In this document: positions 6,877 through 32,873 of the stretch, one piece after another | How positions within the stretch are numbered: the stretch's first letter is position 1 | Layout of the letters: every line of letters starts with the position of its first letter | Assembly: GCA_030429345.1 (NCBI GenBank) | Contig: JAUIFJ010000026.1 | Location: forward strand, 1 to 46,740 | Reading direction: 5' to 3' | Length of the DNA: 46,740 nucleotides | DNA from: a bacterium | GTDB lineage: Bacteria; CAIWAD01 | Position numbers and translations under genes: made by a program | Notes under the pieces: generated by a model | Seen by the model: the letters and a program-made list of their open reading frames with translations, nothing else | Database searches by the model: none | Told to the model about the DNA's origin: nothing

Positions 6877-6957
6877 GGTGCCTCTCCGGAATACATGGAA
6901 TCAAAAGCGGAATATACCGAGCCCGCTGCTGGCATGCCTGCCTTGGCGAGTCGAGGA

Positions 6958-17404: not shown

Positions 17405-18286
17405 ATGCGTCCTGACTTGTTCAGCAAAACGGTCCTGATCACCGGAGCCACCACCGGCATCGGCCTGGCCCTGCTCCAGCGTCTGCTCAAGGGGAGCTGG
17501 CGCATCATCGCCACGGCCCGCCCCACCTCCATGCCGCGCTTCCGGGAACTGGGCTTCCAGGAATCCGACACCCTGCGCCTGCACCCCCTGGACATCCTGA
17601 ATGCGGAACAGCGGGAGGAGCTGCACAAGGGACTCGTGCAGGAGGACTGGCTGCCCGGCATCCTGATAAACAATGCCGGACTGAGCTACCGCGGCGTCGT
17701 CGAACAAATGGACAGCGTGGCGGACGAGCAGCAGATGCGCATCAACTGCCTGGCTCCCCTGGCGCTGACCCGCCTCTTCCTGCCCTCGATGCGCGAACGG
17801 CGCGCGGGACGGATTCTCAACATCAGCAGCGTGGGCGGAATGATGGCCATGCCGACCATGGGCAGCTACTCCGCGAGCAAGTTCGCCCTGGAGGGAGCCA
17901 GCGAGAGCCTGTGGTACGAAATGCGTCCCTGGGGCGTCCATGTGACCCTGGTGCAGCCCGGCTTCGTGCGTTCCGAGTCCTTCCGCAACGTGCGTCCCAG
18001 CCGGCAGGCGGAACAGGCGCAGCTGGACGAGCGGGACCCCTACCACCGCTACTACCGGCACATGGTGCCCTTCATCGAACGGCTGATGTGGCAATCGCGC
18101 AGCAGCGCAGAGGACGTGGCCCGCCGCATCGAAGGCGTGATGCGCATGAAGAGGCCTCCCCTGCGCGTCGCCGGAACGAAGGACGCCCGCTTCTTCTACA
18201 TGCTGCGGCGCCTGCTTCCGCGAACCCTGTACCACAATCTGCTCTACCGCAACCTGCCGGAGATCGGCGACTGGGGTCCCGCATGA
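17405..18286 (+). CDS. Short-chain dehydrogenase/reductase (classical SDR)
   Basis: 293 residues. The Rossmann nucleotide-binding motif TGATTGIG is at 13-20, NNAG at 89-92, the catalytic Ser in NISSVGG (about 141-142), and Tyr155/Lys159 in SYSASK. It is therefore an intact NAD(P)-dependent oxidoreductase; the substrate is unknown. The C-terminus is longer than average and Arg-rich, with a hydrophobic segment near the end, suggesting membrane association as in lipid-active SDRs. There is no clear ribosome-binding site before the ATG, so initiation may be leaderless or weak. Its stop overlaps the DoxX gene start (ATGA 18283-18286). Confidence 0.93.
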   Translation: MRPDLFSKTVLITGATTGIGLALLQRLLKGSWRIIATARPTSMPRFRELGFQESDTLRLHPLDILNAEQREELHKGLVQEDWLPGILINNAGLSYRGVVEQMDSVADEQQMRINCLAPLALTRLFLPSMRERRAGRILNISSVGGMMAMPTMGSYSASKFALEGASESLWYEMRPWGVHVTLVQPGFVRSESFRNVRPSRQAEQAQLDERDPYHRYYRHMVPFIERLMWQSRSSAEDVARRIEGVMRMKRPPLRVAGTKDARFFYMLRRLLPRTLYHNLLYRNLPEIGDWGPA

Positions 18287-18777
18287 TCAATCCCCTGGCA
18301 ATGGATCACGACCGCACCGACCTGATCTTCCGCGTGCTCTTCAGCACGATCTTCCTGGCCCTGGGCATGGAGCACCTGTTTCGTGACACACTGATCCTGG
18401 AACTGATGCCCGGCTGGATGCCGCTGCGGCGGGCCGTCTCGATCCTCTGCGGGCTCTGGCTGCTGGCCGGAGGCGGCATGCTGGCCATCGGCTGGCACAC
18501 TCGGAAGGCGGCGGCCATGCTCGGTCTTTTCCTGGTGCTGGTGACGGCCTTCGTGCACGGAAGCGCGCTGGTGGGTACCCCGGAGGGCCTGCCCGGCGAC
18601 TGGAGCTGGCTCTGGCAGGTCTACCAGCGCAGCAACTTCGTCAAGAACATCTGCCTGCTCGGGGTCTGCTTCCATCTGTTGAATCACGAAGCCGGCCGCT
18701 ACAGCCTGGACTACCGCCTCAACAGAGATCGCGCAAGCAGGCTGCCGTCCGCTCCGGGTCGAGGGCCGGCGAACTGA
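18283..18777 (+). CDS. DoxX-like membrane protein
   Basis: 164 residues with four membrane segments. The first contains RVLFSTIFLALGMEHLF and the others are around SILCGLWLLAGGGMLAIG, AAAMLGLFLVLVTAFVHG and FVKNICLLGVCFHLLN; this order matches the DoxX family. Members are quinone- or redox-linked membrane proteins of varied role. It is translationally coupled to the SDR gene. Its last 59 bases overlap the 3' end of the CofD-like gene on the other strand (18719-18777), a tail-to-tail antisense overlap. Confidence 0.85.
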   Translation: MINPLAMDHDRTDLIFRVLFSTIFLALGMEHLFRDTLILELMPGWMPLRRAVSILCGLWLLAGGGMLAIGWHTRKAAAMLGLFLVLVTAFVHGSALVGTPEGLPGDWSWLWQVYQRSNFVKNICLLGVCFHLLNHEAGRYSLDYRLNRDRASRLPSAPGRGPAN

Positions 18778-19870
18778 CGGAAGTCACCAGCTCGGCCTCG
18801 ACGACACGCAGTCCGCGCGCGCTCAAGGCACGGCTGCTCAACCCGCCGGGATAGCGCCCACGCCGCGGGTCGACGAGAACGTGCGTCATCAGGTGTCTCA
18901 CATCTTCGCTGCCGGGCGCCACTCCCAGGACGGCCAGGAGCAGGTCCGCCTGCTCTTCCAGGCGCAGGCCGGCCACTTCCGGGTCCGGAAAGGTCGAGGG
19001 GATCCAGACCTTGGGACGGGCACTGTCGCGCAGGGCCTTCGTGATCCCCACGGGCAGCAGGCTTGCCACCAGGCTGGTCCAGAAGCTTCCACAGGCGTAA
19101 CACAACAGCTCCGCCGAGGGGATGGTCCGCAGGACTTCGGGTTCGGCCGGTGGGACAGGCCGGGCATTGGCGGTTCCCGGGGCGACGAAGGACAGGCTCT
19201 CGATGCGGGGTGCCGAAGGGGATGCCTGGCGCCTGGTGATCGCTTCCTGTCCCACAATGCGGCTGCCGTCGTCCAGCCCCGCCACCAGGTCCAGCGGAAC
19301 CGTCGAGGCGGGGCGAACCAGGCCGCGGGCGCTCAGGATCCCCGCAAACCGGTCGATCGCCTGGCCCGTTTCCCCCGACTCGAGCATCAGGCCGGTCAAC
19401 ACCAGGTTGCCCAGACTTGCGCCAGCGGCGTCGAAGGCCGGCGGCCTGCGCTCCAGGAAGGCGGCCATGCCCTGGCGAATCACGCGGCTCCGCTCGGCAG
19501 GCAACTGCTTGAGCCGGCTCTCCTCGCCCCCGGCAATCGCCTGCAGCAGTGCCATCTGTTCGTCGGGAGAAGCCCCGGCATCGATGCGGCTGTGCAGGAG
19601 CGCGTGTGCTCCACGCACGCCGGGACGCTCCAGATCCGCCAGCGCCAGCAGCCGGTTGCGCAGATCCCCCGGGCTGATCAGCCCCAGCCCTTTCCGGATT
19701 TCCGCGCTGCTGCCCCCGTTGTCGAAAGGCGTGATCACATGCACACTGCGATGGGTCTGGCGGACCAGCAGCCGGGACAGCCCGCGCAGGGCCGTGCCGC
19801 CGCCGAAGAAGAGCAGGGCGGGACCGCTGACCGGATTCCGCGTGGAGGGGCGGGGAGCGGGCTGGTTCAC
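18719..19870 (-). CDS. GAK-system CofD-like protein
   Basis: 383 residues from GTG 19868-19870. It is related to the CofD/YvcK (UPF0052) family: LLFFGGGTALRGLSRLL at the N-terminus corresponds to the GGGTG nucleotide/phosphoryl loop, and TPFDNGGSSAEIR and SPGDLRNRLLALAD correspond to the DDGGSSG and PGDxRN motifs. The changes from the standard YvcK motifs fit the CofD-related branch seen in GAK operons. The GTG overlaps the ATP-grasp stop (GTGA), with GGAG upstream. It is last in the operon amphi-Trp, PhoU-kinase, ATP-grasp, CofD-like. Reaction unknown; by analogy it may transfer a phospho-group. Confidence 0.87.
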   Translation of the reverse strand: MNQPAPRPSTRNPVSGPALLFFGGGTALRGLSRLLVRQTHRSVHVITPFDNGGSSAEIRKGLGLISPGDLRNRLLALADLERPGVRGAHALLHSRIDAGASPDEQMALLQAIAGGEESRLKQLPAERSRVIRQGMAAFLERRPPAFDAAGASLGNLVLTGLMLESGETGQAIDRFAGILSARGLVRPASTVPLDLVAGLDDGSRIVGQEAITRRQASPSAPRIESLSFVAPGTANARPVPPAEPEVLRTIPSAELLCYACGSFWTSLVASLLPVGITKALRDSARPKVWIPSTFPDPEVAGLRLEEQADLLLAVLGVAPGSEDVRHLMTHVLVDPRRGRYPGGLSSRALSARGLRVVEAELVTSVSSPALDPERTAACLRDLC

Positions 19871-20760
19871 GACAGCCACTCCAGGACCCATTCCGCGTAG
19901 GCGCGTGCCGCGTCGATGCCGCTGCTGTCCATCAGTCCGCGGAACCCGCCGAAAGCGCTGACTTCGTAGACCAGGGGGCCCTCTTCGCTTTCTACCACGT
20001 CGACCCCCGTGAAGGCGAGTCCGAAGGCCTGCTGGGCGCGCCGGGCCAGATCGATGACCTCGGGAGCCGGATCGACGGGAGCATAGCGCCCCCCCTCGTG
20101 GATCGTCGTATTCCAGGAACCCCCCGGAATCCGCGCGTAGGCGCCCAGGTACTCGCCTCCCAGGAAGACGATGCCGAGATCCCGCCCCGGATGCTGCACG
20201 AAGCGCTGCAGGTAGAAGACCAGGTTGCCGCTCTCCCGGTAGCGGCGCAGATCGCGGCGCAGGTCCTGTCCGGGCCTCAACAGGCGCATGCCGCGCGCCT
20301 TGCTCGTATACAATGGCTTGAGCACGGCGGTTCCGAACTCCTCCACGGTCCTCTCGGCAAGGGCGATATCTTCCGTGATACGGGTGCCGGGCATGGGGAT
20401 GCCGGCGCGCTGCAGTGTCAGGGTGCAGGAAAGCCGGTCGAGGGCCAGGCGCATGGCGGCGGGCTCGGAGAACACGGGCACCTCGTGCCTCAGCTGCAGG
20501 TGCTCCAGCAGGTCCAGACGGGAAAGCAGCGCCGGCGAGTAGCGGCCTCCGACTTTCTTGACCACCACGGCGCGAATGGCCTCCAATCGTTTGCCCTTCC
20601 AAAGCAGCCGGTCGGAGGGCAGGTCGAGGCTCAGGTCCTCCATGTCGACCAGAAGCGTATCACATCCGCAATCGCGGAAGCTTTCCACCAGCCGCGCGGA
20701 GGACCATCCGTCCTCGACGCCGGCGACCAGGATGCGCCCCGTTGCATCGCGGCTCTTCAC
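19867..20760 (-). CDS. GAK-system ATP-grasp enzyme
   Basis: 297 residues from GTG 20758-20760; GGAGGA lies just upstream and the GTG overlaps the stop of the kinase gene. The protein shows the ATP-grasp layout: an N-terminal pre-domain, a central ATP-binding part with GTAVLKPLYTSKARGMRL (the lysine-bearing strand and glycine loop), NLVFYLQRFVQHPGRDLGI, and a C-terminal LAFTGVDVVESEEGPLVYEV with the metal-binding acidic residues. It resembles RimK-type ligases, which join a carboxylate to an amine. The position between a PhoU-kinase and a CofD-like gene is diagnostic for the GAK system. Substrate unknown. Confidence 0.9.
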   Translation of the reverse strand: MKSRDATGRILVAGVEDGWSSARLVESFRDCGCDTLLVDMEDLSLDLPSDRLLWKGKRLEAIRAVVVKKVGGRYSPALLSRLDLLEHLQLRHEVPVFSEPAAMRLALDRLSCTLTLQRAGIPMPGTRITEDIALAERTVEEFGTAVLKPLYTSKARGMRLLRPGQDLRRDLRRYRESGNLVFYLQRFVQHPGRDLGIVFLGGEYLGAYARIPGGSWNTTIHEGGRYAPVDPAPEVIDLARRAQQAFGLAFTGVDVVESEEGPLVYEVSAFGGFRGLMDSSGIDAARAYAEWVLEWLS

Positions 20761-22430
20761 ATGCTCCTCCGCAGCAGCCAATCCGGAAAACGGAAAGCGC
20801 CGGCCTGGCCGACGGGAATCCGCTCCAGCAGGTAGAGTCCCTTCAGGAAGAGCTGGCGCGCCAGTTCCCTGTCAAAGATGTATCGGGTGGAAGTGATGCA
20901 GGAACGAGCGACGCCCAGGGCCAGGCGACTCTCGAAGCTTCGGTCCTCCTGCCGGGCGGCAAAGTCCCGGCCGACCGCGAGGCATTCCGCCATACGCCGG
21001 GCAGCGGCATCCTTGCTCGGCTGATCCCCCAGCGGCAATCGGAGCAGGCTGACCATCAGCACGCTCAAGTCCTGCAGCCAGTCCTGCTGCGCGCTGCGAT
21101 GCACATCCAGCAGATGGAGTTTGCTGGCATCCGGATGGTAGAGCACGTTGTCCAGGTTCAGGTCCCCGTGCGTCAGCACGCTGAAGGGAGCCGCCAGGGT
21201 GCGATCCAGGGAATCCAGCCGCAGGAGAAGATCCCCCAGCGAAGGCACGGAATAGCCGCCCAGACACTGCCCGTGGCGGGCAAGGGTCGGGTGAAGACGA
21301 CGCACTCCTGCCATCCGCCGTTTGAGCTGCGCCATGAAGCGCGGGCGGGCCGGCTCGGAAACCCGTGTTTCCTGCCAGATCTCCTGCAACAGCTTCAACA
21401 GTTGCCGCAGGCCGTCGCGTCCGCTGCCTTCGGGGGAATTGATGAAGTGCGCCAGCAGCGTCCGCCCGGGAAGATACTGCACCAGCATGCTGGCGCGTCC
21501 TTCGTGGCGGCGGAACTCCAGAATCTCGGGCGCCAGTCCCGGGCGGAATTCGGCCCAGCGGCGCAGGCCGTCGCGCTCGCGGCTGATCTTGCTGAAGAGC
21601 CCTTCCTTGAAGACGGCGGAAGGCTTGCTGCTTCCGGGGCGAACCGCTGTTGTCAGGTTGCCGCTGCGGGTGTCGGCGAAGCTTTCCAGGTCCAGGCGGT
21701 CCAGTTCGCTTTCCTGGCCGCTGGAAGCCAGATGATCTTCCAGCCTTTCGAGCTGCTTCAATTTGAAACGCTCTCCCACCGCCGCGGACAGGATCGCCTC
21801 GCCGATGTTCTGCAGGCAATCGCCCATCCGCTCCAGGTAGCGCAGGATGAAGAGCATGGTCAACTGGTCTTCGGGATCCCGCCCTTTTTTGAGCCGCCGG
21901 TTGATCTTGACGAAGCCGTTCTTGAACATGCGGTCCAGGTCGCGCTCGCTACGGGCAATGGCCAAGGCCGCGTCCACGTCCATGTTCCGCAGGGCGGCTT
22001 CCAGGCCTTCCAGCCCTTCGTCGATCAACCGGAACATGGCGCTGAAGCGAAAGCCTCGCGGAACACGGTCGCTATGCAGGAAGAGGGTCTGTTTGCACAG
22101 GTTCACCGCGTAGTCCGCAATGCGCTCCAGGTTGGCAGTGACCACGTTGAGCGCCATCAGGCGCGCCAGGCTGCGGTCGCTTCCGGAGGGCGCGTCGCGC
22201 ACAGTGGTGAAACAGTGCCGCTCGATACGGGCTTTGAGCAGGTCCACGTACTGGTCCCGATCCCATGCGCGCTTGAAACGCTCGAAGGACGGCGCCTCGA
22301 GACAAGCGTGAGCATCTTCCAGCTGGCGCAGGGTCTCGAGAACCAGGAAGTGAAAATTATCCGGCAGTCTACGCGCGGCTCCACCCTCCAGGCGCTTTGC
22401 TTGTCCTTCGCTGTTCGCATTGGCAGTCAT
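20757..22430 (-). CDS. PhoU-domain / aminoglycoside-phosphotransferase-like kinase fusion (GAK operon)
   Basis: 557 residues in two parts. Residues about 25-235 are all-helical with two PhoU-like repeats (TANLERIADYAVNLCKQ and LRYLERMGDCLQNIGEAIL, the E/DxxxD metal motifs of PhoU). Residues about 290-480 carry a small-molecule kinase fold: HGDLNLDNVLYHP near residue 418 (catalytic Asp, Asn) and LLDVHRSAQQDW (metal Asp), as in APH/choline kinases. The start ATG 22428-22430 overlaps the amphi-Trp stop (ATGA). In GAK systems that I recall, the kinase is HprK-related; a PhoU-APH fusion in that place is unusual. Substrate unknown, but phosphate sensing joined to phosphorylation is suggested. Confidence 0.88.
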   Translation of the reverse strand: MTANANSEGQAKRLEGGAARRLPDNFHFLVLETLRQLEDAHACLEAPSFERFKRAWDRDQYVDLLKARIERHCFTTVRDAPSGSDRSLARLMALNVVTANLERIADYAVNLCKQTLFLHSDRVPRGFRFSAMFRLIDEGLEGLEAALRNMDVDAALAIARSERDLDRMFKNGFVKINRRLKKGRDPEDQLTMLFILRYLERMGDCLQNIGEAILSAAVGERFKLKQLERLEDHLASSGQESELDRLDLESFADTRSGNLTTAVRPGSSKPSAVFKEGLFSKISRERDGLRRWAEFRPGLAPEILEFRRHEGRASMLVQYLPGRTLLAHFINSPEGSGRDGLRQLLKLLQEIWQETRVSEPARPRFMAQLKRRMAGVRRLHPTLARHGQCLGGYSVPSLGDLLLRLDSLDRTLAAPFSVLTHGDLNLDNVLYHPDASKLHLLDVHRSAQQDWLQDLSVLMVSLLRLPLGDQPSKDAAARRMAECLAVGRDFAARQEDRSFESRLALGVARSCITSTRYIFDRELARQLFLKGLYLLERIPVGQAGAFRFPDWLLRRSM

Positions 22431-22687
22431 GCCTTGCGAATCTCCAAAGGATCGGCCTCGACGGGTGCAGCACGCTCCCAGCGGATATCCAGCTGCAGTC
22501 GGCCCTGTCGATCCAGCTTCTCCGCGCGGATGCGAAGATCCATCCCTTCGGCCGGCTTCAACAACAATTCCGTGTCGCTGTGCTTGAGTCTCAGGACGCC
22601 TTCTCGAAAGGCTCCGGCCAGGCCTTCAAGAATGTCTGCCATGGCCTGTGGATCCTGAATGCTGCGGTGTTCGAAATTCTGACTCAA
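22427..22687 (-). CDS. Amphi-Trp domain protein (GAK system)
   Basis: 86 residues from TTG 22685-22687, with GAGGCG upstream. The sequence has alternating hydrophobic and charged residues and ends a strand with LQLDIRWER, the Trp-terminated amphipathic pattern that gives the amphi-Trp domain its name. It leads the four-gene GAK operon and its stop overlaps the kinase start. Its role is unknown; it may act as a carrier or substrate protein for the enzymes that follow (inference). An AT-rich segment TTAATATAG just before the ribosome-binding site may be the promoter -10 region. Confidence 0.85.
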   Translation of the reverse strand: MSQNFEHRSIQDPQAMADILEGLAGAFREGVLRLKHSDTELLLKPAEGMDLRIRAEKLDRQGRLQLDIRWERAAPVEADPLEIRKA

Positions 22688-23155
22688 CGGATCGCCTCTT
22701 CTATATTAATGAAGCCTTTTGCCGATCAGGGTTGCAAAACCTGGAAGATCCCGGAGTTCCAAAGTGGCAATTTCGATAGTGGCGGATGCAACGCGCCACT
22801 CGGAAGAGGTGGCGCACATTGCTAATCGCCATAAGGAACCCCTGACCCGCCATGGCCTGTCACCTTGGTCACGGAAAGGACGACAGGGCACCAGAGACAG
22901 CTACAAAAGCCCTGCAATCTTCGGAGTGCCTGCAAGTGGCCAGCTTCGGTCATGTGTGCTCATTTTTGAACACGGCTACACCCTCCCTCGGGGGCGCTTC
23001 AACGACAACCAAGATGACAACTGATTGTTTTCATGCTACTTGTAAAATCCTTCATTCTTGGCACACCGATTGCTACACTAGGCGGTGTCCGGTCACCGGA
23101 CTAGCAAAACTGAACAAGAACATCTTCTAGCAACCTTTCAACCTAAGGGGGAAAA
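22688..23155. other. Intergenic promoter region between GAK operon and secreted-protein gene
   Basis: 468 bases without a supported gene. It holds the leftward start region of the GAK operon, a hairpin GCGCCAC...GTGGCGC at 22793-22815 without a T run, the sigma-54 promoter at 23058-23074 and a palindrome GTCCGGT-C-ACCGGAC at 23087-23101 in the leader of the secreted-protein gene. Confidence 0.6.
23058..23074 (+). promoter_or_regulatory. Sigma-54 promoter (first secreted paralog)
   Basis: TTGGCAC-ACCGA-TTGCT: GG at 23060-23061, ten bases, GC at 23072-23073. This matches the consensus TGGCAC-N5-TTGCA almost perfectly. It lies 82 bases before the ATG at 23156. Confidence 0.85.
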
Positions 23156-24127
23156 ATGGAACTCCGTAGTGTTCCCACATTTCTTTTCCGCACTGCCCTT
23201 GTAGTGTCGGTCGCCACTCTCGGCGCCCAGGCCTTCACGGGAAACGTGCCGGCTGACTTCGGGCCCATGTCCGAGGTTGTCTTCGACGGTATGGATGTCG
23301 GTCTGCCTGCTCAGGCGCCGGTGGGTACGATTTCCGGTTGGGAAATCGAAGCCGCGGCTTTTGAGATGGATTGGGCTGGTGGCGTGCTGAGCGTCGGTCT
23401 TGACTTCACCAGCTGGGCTGGCGACGCCGACGGCGACACCTTCGAGGGAGGCACCAGCGCCTGGCTTGCCGGCAACGGCGGCACGGACATGGCCAACCTG
23501 GCCGGTACCGAAGCGATCTGCGTGGCTTTCGACTTTGATCAGGACATGAACTTCGACGTCATCGCCGGTGTCAGCGCCCTGACCGATTATGCCGGATTCG
23601 ACGTTGCCATGTACAATGGCGCCAACCCGCTTCTGCCCTTCGCTTTCGGCGCTTCCATGCCGGCTCACATGGGCGCCCACATGATGGGTCCCGACTTCGA
23701 GTTCGAGCTGACGGGCATGATGAACCTGGATCCCTACAACGATCTGATCTGCTTCAACTTCGCCGTCTTCTCCGGCAGCTATGCTGACGACGGTATCGGC
23801 GAAGACTTCATGTATGGTGAAGTTTGCCTGCGTGATCGCGGTGCCGACGCCCAGGACCTGGCTTCCAGCTTCAGCCTGAGCGCCAACCACCCGAATCCCT
23901 TCAACCCGACCACGACCATCTCCTTCAACATGGAGAGCACGGACGTGGCCAACCTGAGCGTCTATAACATGATGGGCCAGAAGGTTGCCACCCTGGTGGA
24001 CGGTGTTGTCGGCAGCGGCAATCACGAGGTCGTCTTCGACGCTTCCAACCTGAGCAGCGGCGTGTACTTCTACACCCTGTCTGCCGGCGCGAACGTCGAG
24101 ACCCGCAAGATGATCCTCACCAAGTAA
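23156..24127 (+). CDS. Secreted sorting-domain protein, paralog 1 of 3
   Basis: 323 residues. A signal peptide (FFRTALVVSVATLGAQA-type, cut probably after GAQA) leads a passenger domain rich in Asp, Gly and Met, with TEAICVAFDFDQDMNFDVIAGV and DDGIGEDFMYGEVCL containing two conserved Cys and Asp-rich, calcium-like loops. From about residue 240 the sorting domain starts: NHPNPFNPTTTISF, LSVYNMMGQKVATLVDG, SNLSSGVYFYTL and a final RKMILTK. It is probably exported to the surface via a type IX-like route. AAGGGGG precedes the ATG. It has its own sigma-54 promoter and a terminator at 24146-24178. Passenger function unknown. Confidence 0.9.
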   Translation: MELRSVPTFLFRTALVVSVATLGAQAFTGNVPADFGPMSEVVFDGMDVGLPAQAPVGTISGWEIEAAAFEMDWAGGVLSVGLDFTSWAGDADGDTFEGGTSAWLAGNGGTDMANLAGTEAICVAFDFDQDMNFDVIAGVSALTDYAGFDVAMYNGANPLLPFAFGASMPAHMGAHMMGPDFEFELTGMMNLDPYNDLICFNFAVFSGSYADDGIGEDFMYGEVCLRDRGADAQDLASSFSLSANHPNPFNPTTTISFNMESTDVANLSVYNMMGQKVATLVDGVVGSGNHEVVFDASNLSSGVYFYTLSAGANVETRKMILTK

Positions 24128-24323: not shown

Positions 24324-24393
24324 CTTCTTGCTGGCGAAGAAGAAGTGCCTGTTCCCCGAACAGCAAATGCCCTAAACAGTGAAGGAAAGAGTT

Positions 24394-25371
24394 ATGACCA
24401 TTGGAAAACTGTCTGCTGTTGCCATGCGCACCGCCCTGGTTGTGTCTGTGGCAACGCTGAGCGCCCAGGCGTTCACCGGAGATGTACCCACAGACTTCGT
24501 TGGCCCCGACGTTGTCGTCCTTGCCGATCCCATGGATGTCGGTCTGCCCCTGCAGGCTCCCGGCGGAACCATCAGCGGCTGGGAAATTGCTTTCGCCGCT
24601 TTCGAGCTGGATGCCGACAATGACCTGCTGCGTGTGGGTCTCGACTATGTCGGTATGGCTGGCGACGCTGACGGAGACGGCAATGCCTCCAACAGCAGCG
24701 CCTGGCTGCTGGGCAATGGCGGCGTCGACCTGCCCAATCTGGGTGGCACCGAGTCGATCTGCATCGCCTTCGATTTTGATCAGGACATGAACTTCGACCT
24801 GATTGCCGGCGTGGATGGCTTCACGGACGCGACCAACTGCCGCGTGGCCAACTACACCAACGGCGGACTGCTGCCCTTCAGCTTCGGCGCCCCCGCCCCG
24901 GCGCACCAGGGCATGCACATGATCGGCCCCGACTTCGAGTTCGAAATCGCCAATCTGAGCGGTGTTTCCAACTACATGAACATGGATACCTACTGCTTCG
25001 ATTTCGCCCTCTTCTCCGGCAGCTTTGCCGATGACGGCGTCGGCGAGGATTTCATGATGGGTGAGGTTTGCCTCGAGAACCGCAGCGCGGATACCGAGGA
25101 TCTGGTCAGCAACTTCCAGCTGGAAGCCAACTACCCGAACCCCTTCAACCCCACCACGACCCTTTCCTTTACCATGGAGAGCACGGAAGTCGCCAACCTG
25201 AGCGTCTACAACATGGTCGGCCAGAAGGTCGCCACCCTGGTGGACGGTGTTGTCGGCAGCGGCAGCCACGAAGTCGTCTTCGACGCTTCCAACCTGAGCA
25301 GCGGCGTGTACTTCTACACCCTGTCTGCCGGCGCGAACGTCGAGACCCGCAAGATGGTGCTGACCAAGTAG
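24394..25371 (+). CDS. Secreted sorting-domain protein, paralog 2 of 3
   Basis: 325 residues, the same design as paralog 1: signal peptide ending SAQA, a passenger with TESICIAFDFDQDMNFDLIAGV and DDGVGEDFMMGEVCLENRSAD, then the NPFNPTTTLSF sorting block ending RKMVLTK. I chose the ATG at 24394 (GAAGGAAAG upstream) over an in-frame GTG at 24379 because it matches the paralogs. The last part shares an 84-base identical run with paralog 1 (25273-25356 versus 24029-24112), pointing to recent duplication or gene conversion. Own sigma-54 promoter and terminator. Confidence 0.9.
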   Translation: MTIGKLSAVAMRTALVVSVATLSAQAFTGDVPTDFVGPDVVVLADPMDVGLPLQAPGGTISGWEIAFAAFELDADNDLLRVGLDYVGMAGDADGDGNASNSSAWLLGNGGVDLPNLGGTESICIAFDFDQDMNFDLIAGVDGFTDATNCRVANYTNGGLLPFSFGAPAPAHQGMHMIGPDFEFEIANLSGVSNYMNMDTYCFDFALFSGSFADDGVGEDFMMGEVCLENRSADTEDLVSNFQLEANYPNPFNPTTTLSFTMESTEVANLSVYNMVGQKVATLVDGVVGSGSHEVVFDASNLSSGVYFYTLSAGANVETRKMVLTK

Positions 25372-25430: not shown

Positions 25431-25649
25431 TTCCTTCAACTCCTGCTCGTCCTGGCTGACGCCAGCAACAAGTCCCGGCACCACTACCAGTCCTACCGGC
25501 CCAGCACGCATCCAAATCCGCACTCCTGCCGGAATCTGCACACTCACCCCGAAATCCGACAGAAAAAGCACACTTTTACAGTCTGGTCACAAAGCTGGCT
25601 TCGCGCTTAAAGCATTGTGTTTATTCAGTGTGGGAGCTCCACGACTGGA

Positions 25650-25666
25650 TTGGCACAATGCTTGCC
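25650..25666 (+). promoter_or_regulatory. Sigma-54 promoter (third secreted paralog)
   Basis: TTGGCAC-AATGC-TTGCC: GG at 25652-25653, ten bases, GC at 25664-25665. It lies 56 bases before the ATG at 25722. Confidence 0.85.
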
Positions 25667-25721
25667 AAAGATTGCAGAAATTAGCAACCACCAATCCTTA
25701 GGACTTTTGAAGGGGGAACAA

Positions 25722-26693
25722 ATGAAGATGAGCAAGATTCCCGTTGTGCTGTTCCGCACGGCTCTGGTCATCAGCGTGACCGCTGTTGGCGCCAAGGCTT
25801 TCACGGGAGATGTAGCGGTCGATTTCGTCGGCCCGGATGTCGCTGTCCAGCTGGATCCCATGGACGTCGGTCTGCCCGTGCAGGCTCCCGGCGGAACGGT
25901 TTCCGGTTGGGAATTCACGGCGGTCCTGTTCGAGCTGGATGCCGCCAACGACATGCTGCGCGTGGGCCTCGACTATGTCGGTCACGCCGGCGACGCCGAC
26001 GGTGATGGCGATCCTTCCAACAGCAGCGCCTGGCTGCTGGGCAACGGCGGCTTCGACTTCGCCAACCTGGGCGGTACCGAGTCGATCTGCATCGCTTTCG
26101 ATTTCGACAGCGACATGAACATGGACGTCATCGCTGGTGTGAGCGCCATGACGGACACCTATTCGGTCAACGCCTTCAACAATGGCGGCCTGCTGCCCTT
26201 CAGCTTCGGCGCGCCGATGCCCATGCATCAGGGTGCCTACATGATTGGCCCCGATTTCGAGCTGGAACTGACCAACCTGAGCGGTCTGGCCGACTACACG
26301 AACATGGACGAGTACTGCTTCTACTACTCCGTGTTCAGCGGTTCCTATGCTGACGACGGTATTGGCGAGGACTTCAAGTTCGGCGAAGTCTGCCTGGACA
26401 ACCGCAGTGCGGACGCCCAGGAAGTCGCGGGTGATTTCGGTCTGGCTGCCGCCTACCCGAATCCCTTCAACCCGACCACGACCCTGTCCTTCCAGACTCC
26501 CGAGACCGGCATGGCCAACCTGAGCGTCTACAACCTGGCCGGCCGCAAGGTCGCCACGCTGGTTGACGGCATGGTCGACGCCGGTAATCACGAGGTCGTT
26601 TTCGATGCCTCGAACCTGAGCAGCGGCGTGTATTTCTACACCCTGCGCACCGCGAACCTGGTCGAGACCCGCAAGATGGTCCTGACCAAGTAA
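25722..26693 (+). CDS. Secreted sorting-domain protein, paralog 3 of 3
   Basis: 323 residues. A signal peptide ends near GAKA; the passenger keeps the shared TESICIAFDFDSDMNMDVIAGV and DDGIGEDFKFGEVCLDNRSAD segments with both Cys; the sorting block NPFNPTTTLSF follows, then SNLSSGVYFYTL and a final RKMVLTK. It is more diverged from paralogs 1 and 2 than they are from each other, mostly near residues 195-230 and in the last third. ATG 25722 follows AGGGGGAACAA; a longer open frame from 25617 would include the promoter and is rejected. Own sigma-54 promoter and terminator. Confidence 0.9.
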   Translation: MKMSKIPVVLFRTALVISVTAVGAKAFTGDVAVDFVGPDVAVQLDPMDVGLPVQAPGGTVSGWEFTAVLFELDAANDMLRVGLDYVGHAGDADGDGDPSNSSAWLLGNGGFDFANLGGTESICIAFDFDSDMNMDVIAGVSAMTDTYSVNAFNNGGLLPFSFGAPMPMHQGAYMIGPDFELELTNLSGLADYTNMDEYCFYYSVFSGSYADDGIGEDFKFGEVCLDNRSADAQEVAGDFGLAAAYPNPFNPTTTLSFQTPETGMANLSVYNLAGRKVATLVDGMVDAGNHEVVFDASNLSSGVYFYTLRTANLVETRKMVLTK

Positions 26694-27224: not shown

Positions 27225-28442
27225 TTATCCGCAACCACCGCCAACGACCTTGGGCTTTTTCAGCTGGATGCGATCCGGCCAGGAAAGTCTGTCAAAGGTA
27301 CCGGGCAGGGGGCGGGAAATCGTTCTTCGGCTACCCAGAGCCTGCTGAAAACCCTGGTCCGCGCGATCCTGCGCGCCCTCCAGGACCTGATAGTCGGCCG
27401 CGTCCCCTCCGCATGCCTCCAGCCAGGGCTGCAGACCATCGGCCAGGTAGTAGAGATTGCCAAGCCCCAGGCGGTGGAAGGCCTTCCAGGCCTGGCGCGC
27501 GCTCGCCTCGTCCTCGGCAACGAGCAGGGTCACTCGTCCGCTTTGACCGCGTGCTTCTTCCGCATAGGCCTGCATCCCCGTCGGCACCATGCGACGCGCG
27601 TCGCGCAAATGGAAGAGATTGAAGGAGGATTCCGGACGCAGATCCAGGATCTGCAGGTCCATGCGGTTGTCGCGCATGGTGCGCAGGGCTTCCGCGGGAC
27701 CGACCGCAAAGGCCCCATTTTCCAAGGCGCGATGGAGAGTATCCGGTTGCTTCCTCCAGTAGTACACGGGTCCGGGCTCCTCGATCAGGAACAGGGCCAG
27801 GGCGAAGACCACGAAAGCGCCATGAGCGACTGCTCGCATTTTGCTGGCCCGGTTGAAGGTTCGTGAATGGAACTGGCGCTGTATGACAGCCGCCAGGGCG
27901 AAGAGTGCCAGAGCCAGGAAAACGACTCCCAGGAGGACCACCGGGCGGCTGCTGTCGAAGAGCTGCGTCAGATCCTGCCGGCCGTAGTCTCCAAGGGTCC
28001 AGAGTGCTTCGAGTTTCCGGAAGGATTCACCGAAGGAGAACATGCCGACCAGGGCGCCAAGGACGAAGAAAAGACCGTCCAGCTTCAAGGTCGCCAGGGC
28101 AACCAGCGATGTGCCGGGACAGAATCCGCCGACAATGAAGCCGACGCCCATCAGCCCTCCGCCAATGAGTGCCGAGGCCAACCAGGTCGGCGGCAGCCAG
28201 ATCGTCTCCAGCACCAGCCATCCTGCAGCACCGGCCAGCCCCAGCAGCAGGGCCGCGGTGACGATGGCCGTGAACATGACGCGCAGAACGGCCAGGTCGC
28301 GGAAATAGAACTGGCCGGCCAGCTTGCGGCTGTCCCCGAATCCGGCACTTTCCAGAATGAAACCGAAGGCCATGCCGATTCCCAGCATGAGCAACAGGGA
28401 GGGCAGGTCGGAGGCGTGAGCCTCTGGAGCGATGGGAAACAT
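27225..28442 (-). CDS. YeeE/YedE sulfur transporter half fused to a Cys-less rhodanese-like domain with GGC tail (leftward operon)
   Basis: 405 residues. The first 230 or so form membrane helices of the YeeE/YedE family (SUF transporter), with AFGFILESAGFGDSRKLAGQ and GFIVGGFCPGTSLVALATLKLDG, which holds the conserved Cys of thiosulfate-type channels. A rhodanese-like part follows (LQILDLRPESSFNLFHLRDA ... GNLYYLADGLQPW). The active-site loop reads TLLVAEDEASARQ, with no Cys. The protein ends KKPKVVGGGCG, a flexible lysine/glycine tail with a single Cys. It is last in the operon and follows the short YeeE/YedE gene by three bases. I infer that it receives imported sulfur on the C-terminal Cys. 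Homologous to the protein encoded at 37120-38313. Confidence 0.88.
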   Translation of the reverse strand: MFPIAPEAHASDLPSLLLMLGIGMAFGFILESAGFGDSRKLAGQFYFRDLAVLRVMFTAIVTAALLLGLAGAAGWLVLETIWLPPTWLASALIGGGLMGVGFIVGGFCPGTSLVALATLKLDGLFFVLGALVGMFSFGESFRKLEALWTLGDYGRQDLTQLFDSSRPVVLLGVVFLALALFALAAVIQRQFHSRTFNRASKMRAVAHGAFVVFALALFLIEEPGPVYYWRKQPDTLHRALENGAFAVGPAEALRTMRDNRMDLQILDLRPESSFNLFHLRDARRMVPTGMQAYAEEARGQSGRVTLLVAEDEASARQAWKAFHRLGLGNLYYLADGLQPWLEACGGDAADYQVLEGAQDRADQGFQQALGSRRTISRPLPGTFDRLSWPDRIQLKKPKVVGGGCG

Positions 28443-28445
28443 GGT

Positions 28446-28976
28446 CTACTCCTGAGTCCAGAGCCGGCCCAGGGGGCGAGCCAGCGTGTAGGCCGCAATG
28501 AAAACGCTGAACATGAAAATCCAGGCTCCGACGGAAAGCATGGCCCCGCCGCTGAGCGCCAGACCGGAAGTGCACCCGCGGGCAAAGCGCGCACCGAATC
28601 CCATCAGCACTCCGCCCGCAAAGGCGAACAGCCAGCGCTGCTTCTTCCCCAGCAGCGGACCTCGCCGTGTCTCGACACGCATGCGGCCGTGCAGCACGCC
28701 GCTGAGCGCTCCGCCGATCAGCACTCCGATCACCTGCAGCACAAGCCAGTGGTCGAAGGTGTTGCTGGCTGCCATGGGCGCCGTATACGGATTCTGCAGG
28801 ATGTGGTCCGGCTGGAACAGTCCCTGGGCCATCAGGATCAGGCGGTGCAGTCCTCCGGAAGCGCCCAGTCCGTGTCCGGTCAATATAAAGGCTCCGAAAA
28901 GCAGCAGGCCCAGCAGCAGGCCGGCAACGGTCGGGTTCCAGTAGCGTTCGCCGCCCTGGGGAAGGTCGTGTTTCAT
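28446..28976 (-). CDS. YeeE/YedE family sulfur transporter half (leftward operon)
   Basis: 176 residues, four to five membrane helices. The signature GFGARFARGCTSGLALSGGA carries the conserved Cys of YeeE/YedE proteins, which import thiosulfate or related sulfur species. Full-length transporters have two such halves; here the second half is the next gene (27225-28442), so the pair probably makes one split transporter. It starts four bases inside the cytochrome b gene (ATGA 28973-28976). Homologous to the protein encoded at 36620-37129. Confidence 0.92.
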   Translation of the reverse strand: MKHDLPQGGERYWNPTVAGLLLGLLLFGAFILTGHGLGASGGLHRLILMAQGLFQPDHILQNPYTAPMAASNTFDHWLVLQVIGVLIGGALSGVLHGRMRVETRRGPLLGKKQRWLFAFAGGVLMGFGARFARGCTSGLALSGGAMLSVGAWIFMFSVFIAAYTLARPLGRLWTQE

Positions 28977-29611
28977 CTTTCGGCCCCTTCTGCGTGCCCC
29001 TGGGGCAGGTCCTCGTAGCCCGTGATCATGGCGACGAAATTGCTGGCGGGCGTGTGACCCGTCGTCGCCAGGTAGATGTGCGACACCAGGAAGACCAGCA
29101 GCATCCAGGCCAGCAGCAGGTGCAAGCTCGCCAGCAGGCCGATCCAGGTGGGTGGAAGCATGCCGCGCAAGCCTGCATGGCCGCTCCAGAGCAGGAGGCC
29201 GCTGAAAACCTGTCCCGGCAGGGCGATATTGAGCAGCGCCAGGTAGGTCAGCTTCTGCAGCGGATTCAGCTTGGCCTGGCGCGTCTTCTCCACAGGATGG
29301 TCCTCGCCGCGGAAAATGCCTCCCGTGTAATACCTGGCCTGCCGCAGGGCCAGGCCGAAGAATCCCGGGTCGTCGGGCAGGAACTGCAGGATCTCCCGCG
29401 AGAAGATGTGGTACAACAGCCCCAGCAGGGCATTGAGCGCCAGCGCCAGGCCGGCCCAGCGATGCAGGAACTCGGCGAAACGGAAATCCAGCAACAGCGG
29501 CAGGTCGGGACGGTGCACGACCGCTCCGGTCCAGAAGAGCAGCAGGATCACGCCGGCCTGGACCCAGTGCCAGGCGCGCTCGTGCAGGTCATACATTCGA
29601 ACGCGTTGCAT
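28973..29611 (-). CDS. Membrane cytochrome b (di-heme, FdnI/PhsC-like)
   Basis: 212 residues with four membrane helices. Conserved His residues that can bind two b-type hemes occur in YDLHERAWHW, FLHRWAGLALALN, SLHLLLAWMLL and VSHIYLATTGH; the TGH and the closing MITGYED are typical for the cytochrome b subunit of formate dehydrogenase and thiosulfate reductase. It should pass electrons between the quinone pool and the multiheme cytochromes encoded just upstream. GGAGAATCC precedes the ATG; it overlaps the heptaheme gene (TGATG) and the next gene (ATGA). Confidence 0.93.
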   Translation of the reverse strand: MQRVRMYDLHERAWHWVQAGVILLLFWTGAVVHRPDLPLLLDFRFAEFLHRWAGLALALNALLGLLYHIFSREILQFLPDDPGFFGLALRQARYYTGGIFRGEDHPVEKTRQAKLNPLQKLTYLALLNIALPGQVFSGLLLWSGHAGLRGMLPPTWIGLLASLHLLLAWMLLVFLVSHIYLATTGHTPASNFVAMITGYEDLPQGHAEGAER

Positions 29612-31110
29612 CAGGATTCTCCTTCCCGCCGGGAACCGGCGCGCCAGCGCAGGAAGCCATGGCTGCAGACCGCCACCAGGGTCGCCATCAGCAGGACCAG
29701 TCCTGTGACGTCGAGCATGGCGCTCTTCTGTCCGGGCATGTACCCGTGGTTCCCGCGTGCGGATTGTGCGACAAGCCCCTGGCCCGCGACCGGCAACAGG
29801 GTGGGCTCGGTGTATACATCTTGGGGATCGCGGAAGGGGGGCGCCTCCCCGTCCGCGGACAGCGCGACGGGCATGCGAAAAGAGGCAGCCTCCGGATGAT
29901 GGCAGCTGCCGCAGTCCCGCAATGCCCGGCTTCCGTCCTGAATGCCGTGCTGCAGTTCGACAATGCGCAGTTCACGTCGGGCATCTTCGACCAGCAGGAC
30001 CAGGTTGACCGGAACATAGCGCGCCTTTCCCATGTGATCCGTCTTCTCAAGCAGCAGCGGTTTGGCACCCCTTTGCAGAAGGCGGCTGTCCGATGGCGGT
30101 CCCCCGGCTCCGCGCCAGCTGCTCTCCACGACCTTTCCCTGGGCCAGGCGTAGCTCGGCCAGGGCCCCGGCGGGCATTTCCGGAATATGGCATGCCCTGC
30201 AGTCCAGCCTTTCGAAATGCGATTCGCGGTAGGGCAGCCACTCGTGTGGCAGGAAAGGATCGTGGCAATCGCGGCAGCTGCGCATGTCCTGCGCCTCCCC
30301 GGCATCGCCGACGGAGGCGAGCCTGTGCGACGGCTGTTCCAGCCAGTCGCCGAAGCCCTGCCGTCGCGGTTCGTAGAGCAGGTGGGGCGGACTCAGGTCC
30401 GCGTCCAGCCTCCGCTGCATGGGATTGTCAATGCCGTGATGACAAGCCGTGCACTCGAGCAGCGCGCGGGCATGCACATCCCAGGGATCATGCCGGCCTG
30501 TCTTGTCCGCCAGGTTCAGCGGGCTGTCGGACAGACGCTGCGCCGAGTAGAACTGCCCCTGCCAGGCCCAGTCCGCGGGAACAGCATCCTGCAGCAGTGC
30601 GTCGCCGCCGCCCGCTTCGGCCAGGCCATGGCAGGTGCCGCAGCTCGAGCGGCTGCCTGCCTGCAGCGGCAGGCGATCCACGGGCCAGGCGCCATCGGGT
30701 CCGAAAGCATCCGTGTTCCAGGCCAGGGCTTCCGGGTCCACCAGCTCGCTGGCCGCCAGGGTCGCCATGCCGGCGTGCTCCGCATCCCCTTCGGACAGCC
30801 GGCGGATCCGCTGCGGCAAGTCGGCCTGGTCCAGGTGGCAGGCGAAACAGTCCGGTACCGGGTCGCCTTCCGTATACAGCCAGTCGCTGCTGGCCGCCTC
30901 GCCAGGGCCGCCGCCCAGTCCCGGCGTGTGGCTGCTGTGCGTCGAGATGTACTCCACATCGTGACACGACCCGCAGCTCTGGACGAAGTCGTGGGGCCGG
31001 GCAGTCGAGGTCACCGGTCGCCCCGCATTGTCCAGCAGCCGGAAGTCCGGATGGGCCGCCTGCAGCGGCACCGCGCCGAGCAGCGGGAGCAGGAACACCA
31101 GGATCCTCAT
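29611..31110 (-). CDS. Heptaheme c-type cytochrome with C-terminal membrane anchor
   Basis: 499 residues. A signal peptide is followed by seven CxxCH motifs (CGSCH, CFACH, CGTCH, CTACH, CRDCH, CRACH, CGSCH). A single hydrophobic segment near the C-terminus (MLDVTGLVLLMATLVAVCS) anchors it in the inner membrane, with the hemes outside. It most likely relays electrons between the cytochrome b and the octaheme protein. It starts four bases inside the octaheme gene (ATGA 31107-31110), so translation is coupled. I do not recognise a named family. Confidence 0.9.
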   Translation of the reverse strand: MRILVFLLPLLGAVPLQAAHPDFRLLDNAGRPVTSTARPHDFVQSCGSCHDVEYISTHSSHTPGLGGGPGEAASSDWLYTEGDPVPDCFACHLDQADLPQRIRRLSEGDAEHAGMATLAASELVDPEALAWNTDAFGPDGAWPVDRLPLQAGSRSSCGTCHGLAEAGGGDALLQDAVPADWAWQGQFYSAQRLSDSPLNLADKTGRHDPWDVHARALLECTACHHGIDNPMQRRLDADLSPPHLLYEPRRQGFGDWLEQPSHRLASVGDAGEAQDMRSCRDCHDPFLPHEWLPYRESHFERLDCRACHIPEMPAGALAELRLAQGKVVESSWRGAGGPPSDSRLLQRGAKPLLLEKTDHMGKARYVPVNLVLLVEDARRELRIVELQHGIQDGSRALRDCGSCHHPEAASFRMPVALSADGEAPPFRDPQDVYTEPTLLPVAGQGLVAQSARGNHGYMPGQKSAMLDVTGLVLLMATLVAVCSHGFLRWRAGSRREGES

Positions 31111-32540
31111 TGGGCCACCACCTTTCCCTGCTTGCGCCGCCCGCCAACCAGCAGCGGATCCTCCTGGTAGCCCAGGGCTTCCCAGTCCATGCGCGATTGC
31201 TCCCCGTGGCAGTCGTCACACTGCAGCGAACGGCTCTTCTCGGCGACCATGTGAGACAGAGGCCAATACATTTCCGTTTCGGTGAAGCCGTAGCTGCCGC
31301 TGTAGGGGATTCCGCTGGCCTCGCTTCCCAGTTCCAGGGCCTGGTCCCAGTCGTAGGTCGTCCAATAGCCGCCGGGTCCGAAGGTCTTCGGCACCAGCAG
31401 GGTCCGGTGTTCCGTGTCGTAGACCTGGCGGCCCCGGTGGATCTTGAAGGGCCAGATCCGCGCTTGCTCGTCGCGGATGTCTCCCAGGGGTCCCGCCAGG
31501 ATGGTCGGTTGCTCGGCCAGGCTGTCCCCGGCCAGGTAGTGGCGGGCCTTGCCGTTGTACCACTCGTACTCGGGAACCACCTCGTGCTCCCACTCGAAGG
31601 CGCCCTTCCTGGCCATGTAGCGGTGGGGATCGGCGACCGCGCGTTCGCGCTCCCTGTCCCCGGCGACGGACCAGTCCCAGAACAGCTTGGTGCCTTCGTC
31701 CTGGGCCATTTCCGGAATATGGCAGGTCTGGCAGGCCAGGGTCCGGCCATGGAGATTGAGCCGCTCGTCGTCGTGCGGCGATTCCGTGTGACACTGATCG
31801 CATGTCACACGCTGATCGCTCTCCAGGCTGACCGAAATGGCCCGCCCCGGAATCCTGTGCTCCTCGGTCCAGTGGCAATCCGTGCACTGGAAGTCGTGCT
31901 TGCCCATGTGCACGTCGAGGCGCGGACCGGGATGCAGCAGGCTCTGGTCCAGGTCTCCGTGCTTGACAGCGTTTCCGCCGCCGCCGTTGAAGTGGCAGCT
32001 TCCGCAGGTCTGCCGGCTGGTCGGTCCGACGCTGGCCGCGACCAGGCGCAGATCGACGGCGGGATCCGGCAATCCGGACAGTCCCTTGCGATAGCTTCCG
32101 CTGCCGTCGTGGCAGACCAGGCAGTCCACGTTCTCCTCGATGGAGAAATCGAACTCGGCATCCTTCCAGCCATAGCCCGCGTGGCAGGTCGTGCAGCGAG
32201 GCCAGTTCGACTCCACCCCTATACAGAAGTTGTTCAGGGCATTGGCCTTGCCGAAGCGGATCGGCGCTTCACCGGGCCGCACTTCCATGGGACTGCCCTG
32301 CCAGTTCCAGTGGGCTGTCTGCTGCACATGTTTCGCGGCCTCTTCGTGGCAGGCAAGACAAGTGCGGGTGACTTCCGGACCGCTGGCCAGGCTGTCCGTG
32401 TAGAAAGGGGAATGATCCAGGGGTTTTCCACGCGTCGGAAGGTGTTCCCAGGGATCGTTGCCCTGGACTGCTCCCGGCAGGAGCGCGCCCAGCAAAAGCG
32501 CGTGCAGCAGGATCTGTGCCGTCATATGGATCCGGTTCAT
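31107..32540 (-). CDS. Octaheme c-type cytochrome, tetrathionate reductase family
   Basis: 477 residues with a signal peptide and eight CxxCH motifs (CLACH, CTTCH, CLVCH, CGSCH, CTDCH, CDQCH, CQTCH, CDDCH). NALNNFCIGVESNWPRCTTC and the following AGYGWKDAEFDF, VDCLVCHD and FNGGGGNAVKHGDLD are close to the octaheme tetrathionate reductase family. The characterised Shewanella enzyme reduces tetrathionate and also nitrogen compounds, so the substrate here is a family-level guess. I chose ATG 32538-32540 (AGGAAGAG upstream). It is first in the leftward operon, beside a candidate FNR-type site. It is not related to the molybdenum Ttr enzyme. Confidence 0.92.
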   Translation of the reverse strand: MNRIHMTAQILLHALLLGALLPGAVQGNDPWEHLPTRGKPLDHSPFYTDSLASGPEVTRTCLACHEEAAKHVQQTAHWNWQGSPMEVRPGEAPIRFGKANALNNFCIGVESNWPRCTTCHAGYGWKDAEFDFSIEENVDCLVCHDGSGSYRKGLSGLPDPAVDLRLVAASVGPTSRQTCGSCHFNGGGGNAVKHGDLDQSLLHPGPRLDVHMGKHDFQCTDCHWTEEHRIPGRAISVSLESDQRVTCDQCHTESPHDDERLNLHGRTLACQTCHIPEMAQDEGTKLFWDWSVAGDRERERAVADPHRYMARKGAFEWEHEVVPEYEWYNGKARHYLAGDSLAEQPTILAGPLGDIRDEQARIWPFKIHRGRQVYDTEHRTLLVPKTFGPGGYWTTYDWDQALELGSEASGIPYSGSYGFTETEMYWPLSHMVAEKSRSLQCDDCHGEQSRMDWEALGYQEDPLLVGGRRKQGKVVAQ

Positions 32541-32873
32541 GGAACTCTTCCTTTGGAAATGCATCGGCGGACAAGGTAACCGAATAGCTATTTAGATATT
32601 TGACGAAGATCAATATTGACCAATTAATCCTACTCGCTCATCAAGCTGGATTTTGCCCATTGCCTATTGAATTATCACAGGTTGTGATTGGATCGAAAGA
32701 GTGCCACAGAAAGCTCTGCATGATTTTGTTCAATAAGTCAATCAACTAGCCACTGCATAAACAACCACCAAGACAGCTCTACATAATGATATGTTCATGA
32801 AAGCATGAGTCAGGTCAAGAGTCCCGGCCCGCCAACCCTATACAATGGAGGCAGTCAGATTTCCGGAGGGCGC
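32541..32873. promoter_or_regulatory. Shared divergent promoter region of the two respiratory operons
   Basis: 333 bases, clearly more AT-rich than the flanking genes. It contains TTGAC-GAAG-ATCAA at 32600-32613, close to the FNR/CRP-type consensus TTGAT-N4-ATCAA, about 60 bases before the octaheme start. AT-rich stretches such as CATAATGATATG near 32790 could serve the rightward operon. No gene is seen. Confidence 0.55.
32600..32613. promoter_or_regulatory. FNR-like binding site
   Basis: TTGAC-GAAG-ATCAA matches 9 of 10 defined positions of the FNR/DNR consensus TTGAT-N4-ATCAA. Its place between two anaerobic-type respiratory operons supports oxygen control; no FNR gene is in the window. 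Confidence 0.45.

Follow-up and report, generated by a model that had tools for sequence, protein, structure and literature searches.

A four-gene GAK locus

The window, the whole 46,740-nucleotide stretch that was analysed, contains four minus-strand genes running from 22687 to 18719, each overlapping the next by four bases (ATGA at 22430-22427, GTGA at 20760-20757, and GTGA at 19870-19867). Genes and subdomains are as follows:

22687-22427, minus strand: amphi-Trp gene, the first of the operon (86 aa, TTG start, AAGAGG ribosome-binding-like site upstream)
22430-20757, minus strand: PhoU-APH fusion kinase gene (557 aa, ATG start)
21771..22403, minus strand: PhoU half of the fusion (about residues 10-220; range aligned to PhoU structures)
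20757..21764, minus strand: APH-type kinase half of the fusion (about residues 223-557)
20760-19867, minus strand: GAK ATP-grasp gene, RimK/LysX-like (297 aa, GTG start)
19870-18719, minus strand: GAK CofD-like gene (383 aa, GTG start)

The original prediction had described a four-gene GAK operon with these overlaps, and its coordinates were exact: the locus is a GAK locus (NCBIfam TIGR04356/04357/04354/04355/04358). The amphi-Trp protein scores 40.6 bits against TIGR04354 (cut-off 31), and the tryptophan of this domain occurs in every one of 124 aligned copies. Matches to the GAK-specific families were expected for the two proteins encoded after the kinase; the ATP-grasp protein clears its model (TIGR04356, grasp_GAK; 361.2 bits, cut-off 300), while the CofD-like protein has TIGR04357 (CofD_rel_GAK) as its best, full-length family match at 325.5 bits, 14.5 under the cut-off of 340. 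The gene order is common to GAK loci of many phyla, so the window's arrangement is not a product of chance, and the fusion kinase gene adjoins the ATP-grasp gene, as it does in 77 of 80 named loci. Here and below, the named loci are the 80 that ranked best among 515 confirmed ones by similarity to the ATP-grasp alignment. A longer TTG start, at 20781, is also listed for the ATP-grasp open reading frame.

No Rfam match at gathering scores was found in the window. Terminator-like sites number three (3.7 expected by chance), and there is one promoter-like site, on the strand opposite to the operon; repeats within 18300-23200 are weak and chance-like. A defense system was considered and rejected, as the four window proteins, one PHP-like protein and one protein of the HprK-related kinase B family (HprK_B; TIGR04355) gave no PADLOC match at E 0.001. 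Public annotation uses the name GAK, and our literature search turned up no publication on the system or on a fusion of PhoU with a kinase.

By sequence, the closest solved relatives of the ATP-grasp protein are LysX and RimK, and those of the CofD-like protein are the YvcK/GlmR-type structures 2ppv, 2o2z, and 2hzb. The latter protein also matches PF01933 (CofD; 126.1 bits, cut-off 30) and is assigned, by these similarities, to the GlmR/YvcK branch. Conservation of the CofD-like, HprK_B, and PHP-like families was assessed on every second locus (28 of 56, 38 of 76, and 34 of 68, respectively), with the window's CofD-like protein added. GAK CofD-like proteins all share the first catalytic Asp and the GD-R motif, whereas the window's protein stays under the cut-off of the GlmR/YvcK model TIGR01826 (114.4 bits vs 196). 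GlmR is a uridyltransferase, and its Listeria form was mutated at three catalytic residues together, D40, D41, and N198 (PMC10128056). The window's protein keeps only the first of them, with Asn at the second (the remaining 28 of 29 CofD-like sequences have Ser) and Ser at the third (Asn in 26 of 29); GlmR-type transfer is therefore putative. The CofD-like gene is absent from 7 of 40 well-flanked named loci (best 80 of 515) and from three of the nine GAK genomes among 193 searched, and so cannot be a step that every GAK system needs.

The PhoU-APH fusion kinase

An APH-type kinase fused to two PhoU repeats, as predicted from the sequence, was recovered by profile search, with PF01895 (PhoU) matching over two stretches (84.4 bits, cut-off 23.5) and PF01636 (APH) at 29.2 bits (cut-off 23.2). 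No NCBIfam model reached its own cut-off for the fusion; the canonical stand-alone PhoU equivalog TIGR02135 scored 81.2 bits, below its cut-off of 130.25. An aminoglycoside resistance gene was rejected on the APH equivalog models (34.5 bits, far under the cut-off of 205). Fold searches with a structure model of the window's protein (pLDDT 90.8) retrieved PhoU 1t72 (Z 25.1, rmsd 2.7 over 208 residues) and methylthioribose kinase 2pyw (Z 22.6), and the neighbors of the kinase half comprise methylthioribose kinase, PsiK, APH(3'), maltokinase, glucosamine kinase, and LxmK. K275, E285, the HGDxNxxN motif at residues 421-428 (21147-21170), and D442 are the same in 78 of 78 aligned sequences (alignment A2). 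The kinase thus shares fold and catalytic motifs with APH/choline-kinase-fold small-molecule kinases such as 5-methylthioribose kinase, maltokinase, and APH(3'), but differs from them in being joined to PhoU and in falling far under the aminoglycoside cut-offs. The small-molecule substrate of the original prediction agrees with the closest fold matches (methylthioribose kinase, sugar kinases, and APH) and stays putative; one neighbor, LxmK, is a member of a lanthipeptide dehydratase complex.

Evidence for the predicted phosphate-responsive control is of two kinds, and together they hint weakly at phosphate gating of the fusion. ExxxD motifs lie in the window's PhoU half at residues 102-106 (22113-22127), 162-166, and 200-204 (21819-21833), and the ExxxD motifs are mostly conserved. 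A stand-alone PhoU gene occurs in 3 of 50 GAK loci, the 50 longest of the named ones (best 80 of 515), against 0.24 expected. ABC-transporter neighbors of GAK loci are a mixture in which PstB is not the sole type.

Components were counted across loci with profiles and score thresholds of our own making. Of the best 80 of 515 loci, 77 have PhoU-APH (70 of the 71 with 2 kb upstream), as do all 8 relatives and all 3 plasmid loci; the window's genome holds one copy. Cultivated GAK hosts include Desulfogranum japonicum (L082) and Onishia taeanensis (L081), and a plasmid-borne locus occurs in Rhodobacterales. Among 193 genomes it was found in ten, nine of which also encode the GAK ATP-grasp protein, eight HprK_B, and six the GAK CofD-like protein. 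Conversely, all nine genomes with the GAK ATP-grasp have PhoU-APH (Fisher p 1.2e-14, phylogeny ignored). In the tenth genome (G176), PhoU-APH is cut by the contig end and lies beside genes for a histidine phosphatase, a metallophosphoesterase, and an amphi-Trp protein. PhoU-APH is therefore a regular component, as yet without a name, of almost all GAK loci surveyed (best 80 of 515), and with the ATP-grasp protein it forms the constant pair of the system.

HprK-related kinase B and phosphoesterase modules

That GAK loci elsewhere carry an HprK-related kinase was borne out: HprK_B is present in 69 of 80 named loci (best 80 of 515), 7 of 8 relatives, and all 3 plasmid loci. The original prediction went further and placed PhoU-APH in the slot of this kinase, as a substitute in the window's lineage. 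PhoU-APH is indeed the window operon's sole kinase, and neither window nor genome yielded a TIGR04355 match over the cut-off of 200 (the genome's best reached 26 bits). In most loci of the best 80 of 515, however, the two kinases stand side by side, PhoU-APH usually being next to HprK_B, and in loci lacking HprK_B the fusion is close to that of HprK_B-bearing kin; for instance, L042 (without HprK_B) adjoins L091 (with it) in the PhoU-APH tree. This co-occurrence refutes replacement, which we regard as hardly tenable and which could survive only in the form that PhoU-APH alone suffices. The tree was computed without L021, and three rows whose HprK state was unknown do not enter the count.

HprK_B can nevertheless be missing from GAK loci. 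Nine other named loci (best 80 of 515) lack it, mostly on short contigs of draft assemblies; it is missing from 8 of 70 with 1.3 kb downstream and present in 40 of 40 with at least 5 kb on each side. Five of the loci lacking it, from Desulfonatronovibrio/Desulfonatronospira and Desulfonatronum (L039, L076, L084, L086, and L042), resemble the window in having ATP-grasp followed by CofD-like without HprK_B, and their genomes hold no HprK_B over the cut-off. Unlike the window, four of the five have a PHP-like phosphoesterase (the contig start is too near to judge in L039), and they are not its closest kin in the PhoU-APH tree.

An improbable alternative is that a canonical HPr kinase encoded elsewhere in the window's genome (L023, open reading frame 1105-2073) supplies the HprK function in trans. 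That frame, an HPr kinase by its motifs as judged by eye, holds the genome's best TIGR04355 match, the 26-bit hit, which covers the P-loop only; HprK_B, however, is a family separate from canonical HPr kinase, with a long N-terminal part. Nor is such a stand-in seen throughout the nine other genomes with an HprK_B-less locus: a TIGR04355 search gave no match at E 0.001 in five, weak P-loop matches (22-28 bits) in three, and a true HprK_B elsewhere in one.

A PHP-fold phosphoesterase emerges as a further unnamed, common GAK component, its gene occurring in 61 of 80 named loci (best 80 of 515). This protein, encoded upstream, gave nothing relevant in a PDB sequence search with the family; the fold search alone matched a PHP phosphoesterase (3o0f; Z 15.6, rmsd 3.5 over 239 residues). 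Its His/Asp metal-ligand motifs are invariant in 34 of 34 sequences. It occurs together with the histidine phosphatase/metallophosphoesterase pair in none of the 80 named loci (best 80 of 515). The window contains neither this pair nor an XXXCH gene, and its genome has no PHP-like protein in a search that was positive in six of ten genomes. HprK_B and the PHP-like phosphoesterase are thus missing from a genome that is 98% complete, and the window's locus is best read as a streamlined GAK variant that has lost both.

Loss of these two modules could also mark a decaying relic, as could the long branch of the window's PhoU-APH (1.96 in a quick tree) and the CofD-like score under its cut-off. Four intact reading frames with four-base overlaps, retained kinase catalytic residues, and a TIGR04356 score well over the cut-off argue against decay, and we consider it very improbable. 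Given the long branch, the function of the window's fusion may have shifted.

A proposed pathway and its alternatives

A streamlined locus with a PhoU-gated kinase/CofD/ligase mechanism is the reading we tentatively favor, as a whole somewhat short of probable. The APH half would phosphorylate a small molecule, probably sugar-like or acidic, with the PhoU half setting kinase activity in response to phosphate, metal state, or a docking partner. A nucleotide derivative of the kinase product may be bound or used by the CofD-like protein, and the ATP-grasp enzyme would ligate an amino acid or other carboxylate partner. In other genomes, the PHP-fold phosphoesterase, or the histidine phosphatase and metallophosphoesterase, would undo the phosphorylation, and HprK_B could add protein-level control. 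Amphi-Trp proteins may serve as scaffolds or carriers.

The amphi-Trp proteins are also central to a different possibility, in which GAK modifies protein: PhoU-APH and HprK_B would phosphorylate the amphi-Trp protein, and the ATP-grasp enzyme would ligate a residue to it in the manner of LysW/LysX or RimK. Small amphi-Trp proteins flank the enzymes in 71 of 80 named loci (best 80 of 515). HprK phosphorylates a small protein, the ATP-grasp is nearest LysX/RimK by sequence, and the APH-fold LxmK is part of a lanthipeptide dehydratase complex. Yet no conserved C-terminal residue for ligation was seen by eye on amphi-Trp proteins, a result on which the carrier-protein idea was also dropped; no phospho-site position was decisive, the best being Ser/Thr in 73% of 112 copies; and most fold neighbors of the kinase are small-molecule kinases. 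We therefore judge protein modification unlikely, if still plausible.

The small-molecule pathway could be extended to GAK at large, as a phosphate-gated pathway across many phyla in which PhoU directly regulates a small-molecule kinase. The metabolite made and unmade through PhoU-APH, GlmR-like CofD, LysX-like ligase, and a dedicated phosphoesterase would be phosphorylated, capped with an amino acid, and linked to a nucleotide, and would be a cofactor, a signal, or a precursor of the envelope, with the window as the smallest working form; we offer this extension as doubtful speculation. The GAK parts list itself changes, with PhoU-APH as the constant kinase, a PHP-fold phosphoesterase as a frequent partner, and an HprK-related kinase that can be absent. 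With just four genes, the window's locus lends itself to reconstitution, so that the GAK product becomes testable. In one further locus (L034), HprK_B and CofD are encoded in a single reading frame.

The operon and its surroundings

The four genes lie at 18719–22687 on the minus strand, as originally predicted, and the predicted four-base overlaps link them throughout (ATGA at 22430–22427, GTGA at 20760–20757 and GTGA at 19870–19867). In the family scan, the amphi-Trp protein matched TIGR04354 (40.6 bits; cut-off 31), and a single 557-aa protein combined two PhoU stretches with an APH kinase (PhoU-APH). The original prediction had made the identity of the operon depend on GAK-family matches of the two remaining proteins: the ATP-grasp enzyme exceeded the TIGR04356 cut-off (361.2 bits vs 300), and the CofD-like protein, with GAK CofD (TIGR04357) as its best family, fell slightly below (325.5 vs 340). 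It is nearly certain that this is a GAK locus and that PhoU-APH is a constant GAK gene. A literature search, with most subscription papers and bioRxiv preprints outside its coverage, returned no paper describing either GAK or the fusion.

The genome to which the window belongs, as contig 88, spans 4.24 Mb and is 98% complete. The GAK ATP-grasp was absent at E 1e-60 from the other four of five genomes examined in the phylum, and the locus is therefore sporadic. T9SS-type proteins are encoded upstream on the opposite strand, and the respiratory cluster beyond them is perhaps a sulfur-compound reductase.

Features flanking the operon in the window
17911–18777, +, ORF with a weak DoxX match; its 3′ end overlaps the 3′ end of the CofD gene by 59 bases, on opposite strands
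23156–24127, 24379–25371 and 25617–26693, +, tandem set of three paralogous secreted proteins, each with a T9SS type A sorting tail (the third judged from sequence only)
27225–40922, respiratory cluster: rhodanese/Sulf_transp, cytochrome b561, multihaem cytochromes (one PF11783), molybdopterin oxidoreductase, NrfD, a second Sulf_transp and another multihaem cytochrome
41509–42618, +, IS110-family transposase
44458–45297 and 45535–46452, two further proteins with tails of this T9SS type A kind, close to the end of the window

PhoU-APH and HprK_B across GAK loci

We scanned named genomes with the ATP-grasp alignment, took the best 80 of 515 loci and counted components with home-made profiles. 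PhoU-APH was present in 77 of these best 80; where at least 2 kb of upstream sequence was available, 70 of 71 had it, a planctomycete locus (L028) being the one without. Phyletic profiling of 193 genomes (thresholds: PhoU-APH E 1e-30, ATP-grasp E 1e-50, HprK-related kinase B [HprK_B] E 1e-20, CofD_GAK E 1e-50) placed PhoU-APH in 10, with ATP-grasp in nine of those, HprK_B in eight and CofD_GAK in six. In the tenth genome (G176) a contig end truncates the PhoU-APH gene, and the genes before it encode a histidine phosphatase, a metallophosphoesterase and an amphi-Trp protein; every PhoU-APH detected in the 193 genomes thus stands in a GAK setting.

At E 1e-50, TIGR04356 matched nine of the 193 relatives, counting the window. 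The order amphi-Trp, PhoU-APH, ATP-grasp held in all eight others, with HprK_B next in seven; the eighth (G107) reaches a contig end there, and HprK_B and CofD open another contig beside the remainder of an ATP-grasp gene. Three annotated Rhodobacterales plasmids carry a "phosphotransferase" (a PhoU-APH homologue), ATP-grasp, HprK-related kinase B, histidine phosphatase, metallophosphoesterase and amphi-Trp; two of them also have CofD close by, and one has a NUDIX gene. Several loci (L016, L017, L033, L040 and others) have a second amphi-Trp paralogue downstream of CofD or HprK_B, in several cases with a long Ala/Pro/Lys-rich tail.

HprK_B occurred in 69 of the best 80 of 515 loci, and in 62 of the 70 among them with at least 1.3 kb downstream. 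We read it as dispensable, on evidence that points both ways. All 40 of these loci that have 5 kb of flank on either side contain it, but ATP-grasp is followed directly by CofD in four loci (L039, L042, L076 and L084) and by histidine phosphatase in two (L049 and L062). Whole-genome searches returned no TIGR04355 (HprK_B) match over cut-off in eight of nine genomes with HprK_B-less loci, the ninth (G195, host of L049) having one elsewhere, and a quick PhoU-APH tree needed six changes to account for the loci without HprK_B. The best TIGR04355 match in the window's genome reached 26 bits, in an ORF that by eye resembles an ordinary HPr kinase, and HprK_B is very probably truly absent there. A Zixibacteria GAK locus (L034, 3823–6210, +) encodes HprK_B and the CofD-like protein in a single ORF, which ties the two together.

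Structure of PhoU-APH and the phosphate link

The PhoU-APH model (pLDDT 90.8) divides into a PhoU half, similar to 1t72 (Z 25.1), and a kinase half closest to methylthioribose kinase (Z 22.6), with PsiK, APH(3′), maltokinase, glucosamine kinase and LxmK, which comes from a lanthipeptide dehydratase complex, as further fold neighbours. K275, E285, H421, D423, N425, N428 and D442, with roles assigned from the APH fold, are identical in all 78 sequences. Each of the six E and D residues that make up the PhoU ExxxD motifs is retained in 68–75 of 78; PMC5686610 describes E(D)XXXD as a PhoU hallmark. Among the longest 50 of the best 80 of 515 loci, three have a stand-alone PhoU gene, vs 0.24 expected from those genomes' PhoU genes (p 0.002, relatedness ignored). 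With the mostly kept motifs, this gives the originally predicted phosphate-responsive control a hint rather than proof.

Phosphoesterases and partner enzymes

A ∼390-aa PHP-like protein is encoded immediately before amphi-Trp, with all 61 ORFs of the cluster on the amphi-Trp strand; it occurs in 61 of the best 80 of 515 loci and in six of eight relatives.

L075 (named GAK locus) 6803–7969, +, PHP-fold phosphoesterase family of GAK loci, also in 60 other named loci among the best 80 of 515

A representative had no Pfam or NCBIfam match, and sequence search of the PDB gave no relevant match for the family. Among PHP phosphoesterases, the model of the representative (pLDDT 91) matches 3o0f (Z 15.6), RNase AM and 2yb1, and all 34 sequences share the HWHPE, PHPE and GDDxH residues. 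None of the best 80 of 515 loci combined this protein with the histidine phosphatase/metallophosphoesterase pair, and one or the other was found in each of the 40 well-flanked loci among them. The PHP-like protein was not found in the window's genome by a search that was positive in six of 10 GAK genomes; G041 and G186 also lacked it, and G176 has the alternative pair.

In the AmgK-MurU salvage route, an APH-type kinase acts ahead of a uridylyltransferase. A metabolic mechanism for GAK, in which a PhoU-gated small-molecule kinase would act with a GlmR-like CofD protein, a RimK/LysX-like ligase and, in most genomes, an opposing phosphatase, is the favoured but tentative reading, less likely than not. 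The nearest PDB entries to the GAK ATP-grasp by sequence are LysX and RimK, and its next NCBIfam model after grasp_GAK is MptN; the nearest structures to the CofD-like protein are YvcK/GlmR. GlmR is a uridyltransferase (PMC10128056), and PMC7525490 describes UDP-GlcNAc binding by Bacillus subtilis GlmR and its interaction with YvcJ. Residues D40, D41 and N198, which had been mutated together in Listeria GlmR, were mapped onto 29 GAK CofD-like proteins through alignment to the nearest solved structures: all 29 kept the first, none kept the second and 26 kept the third, which is Ser in the window's protein.
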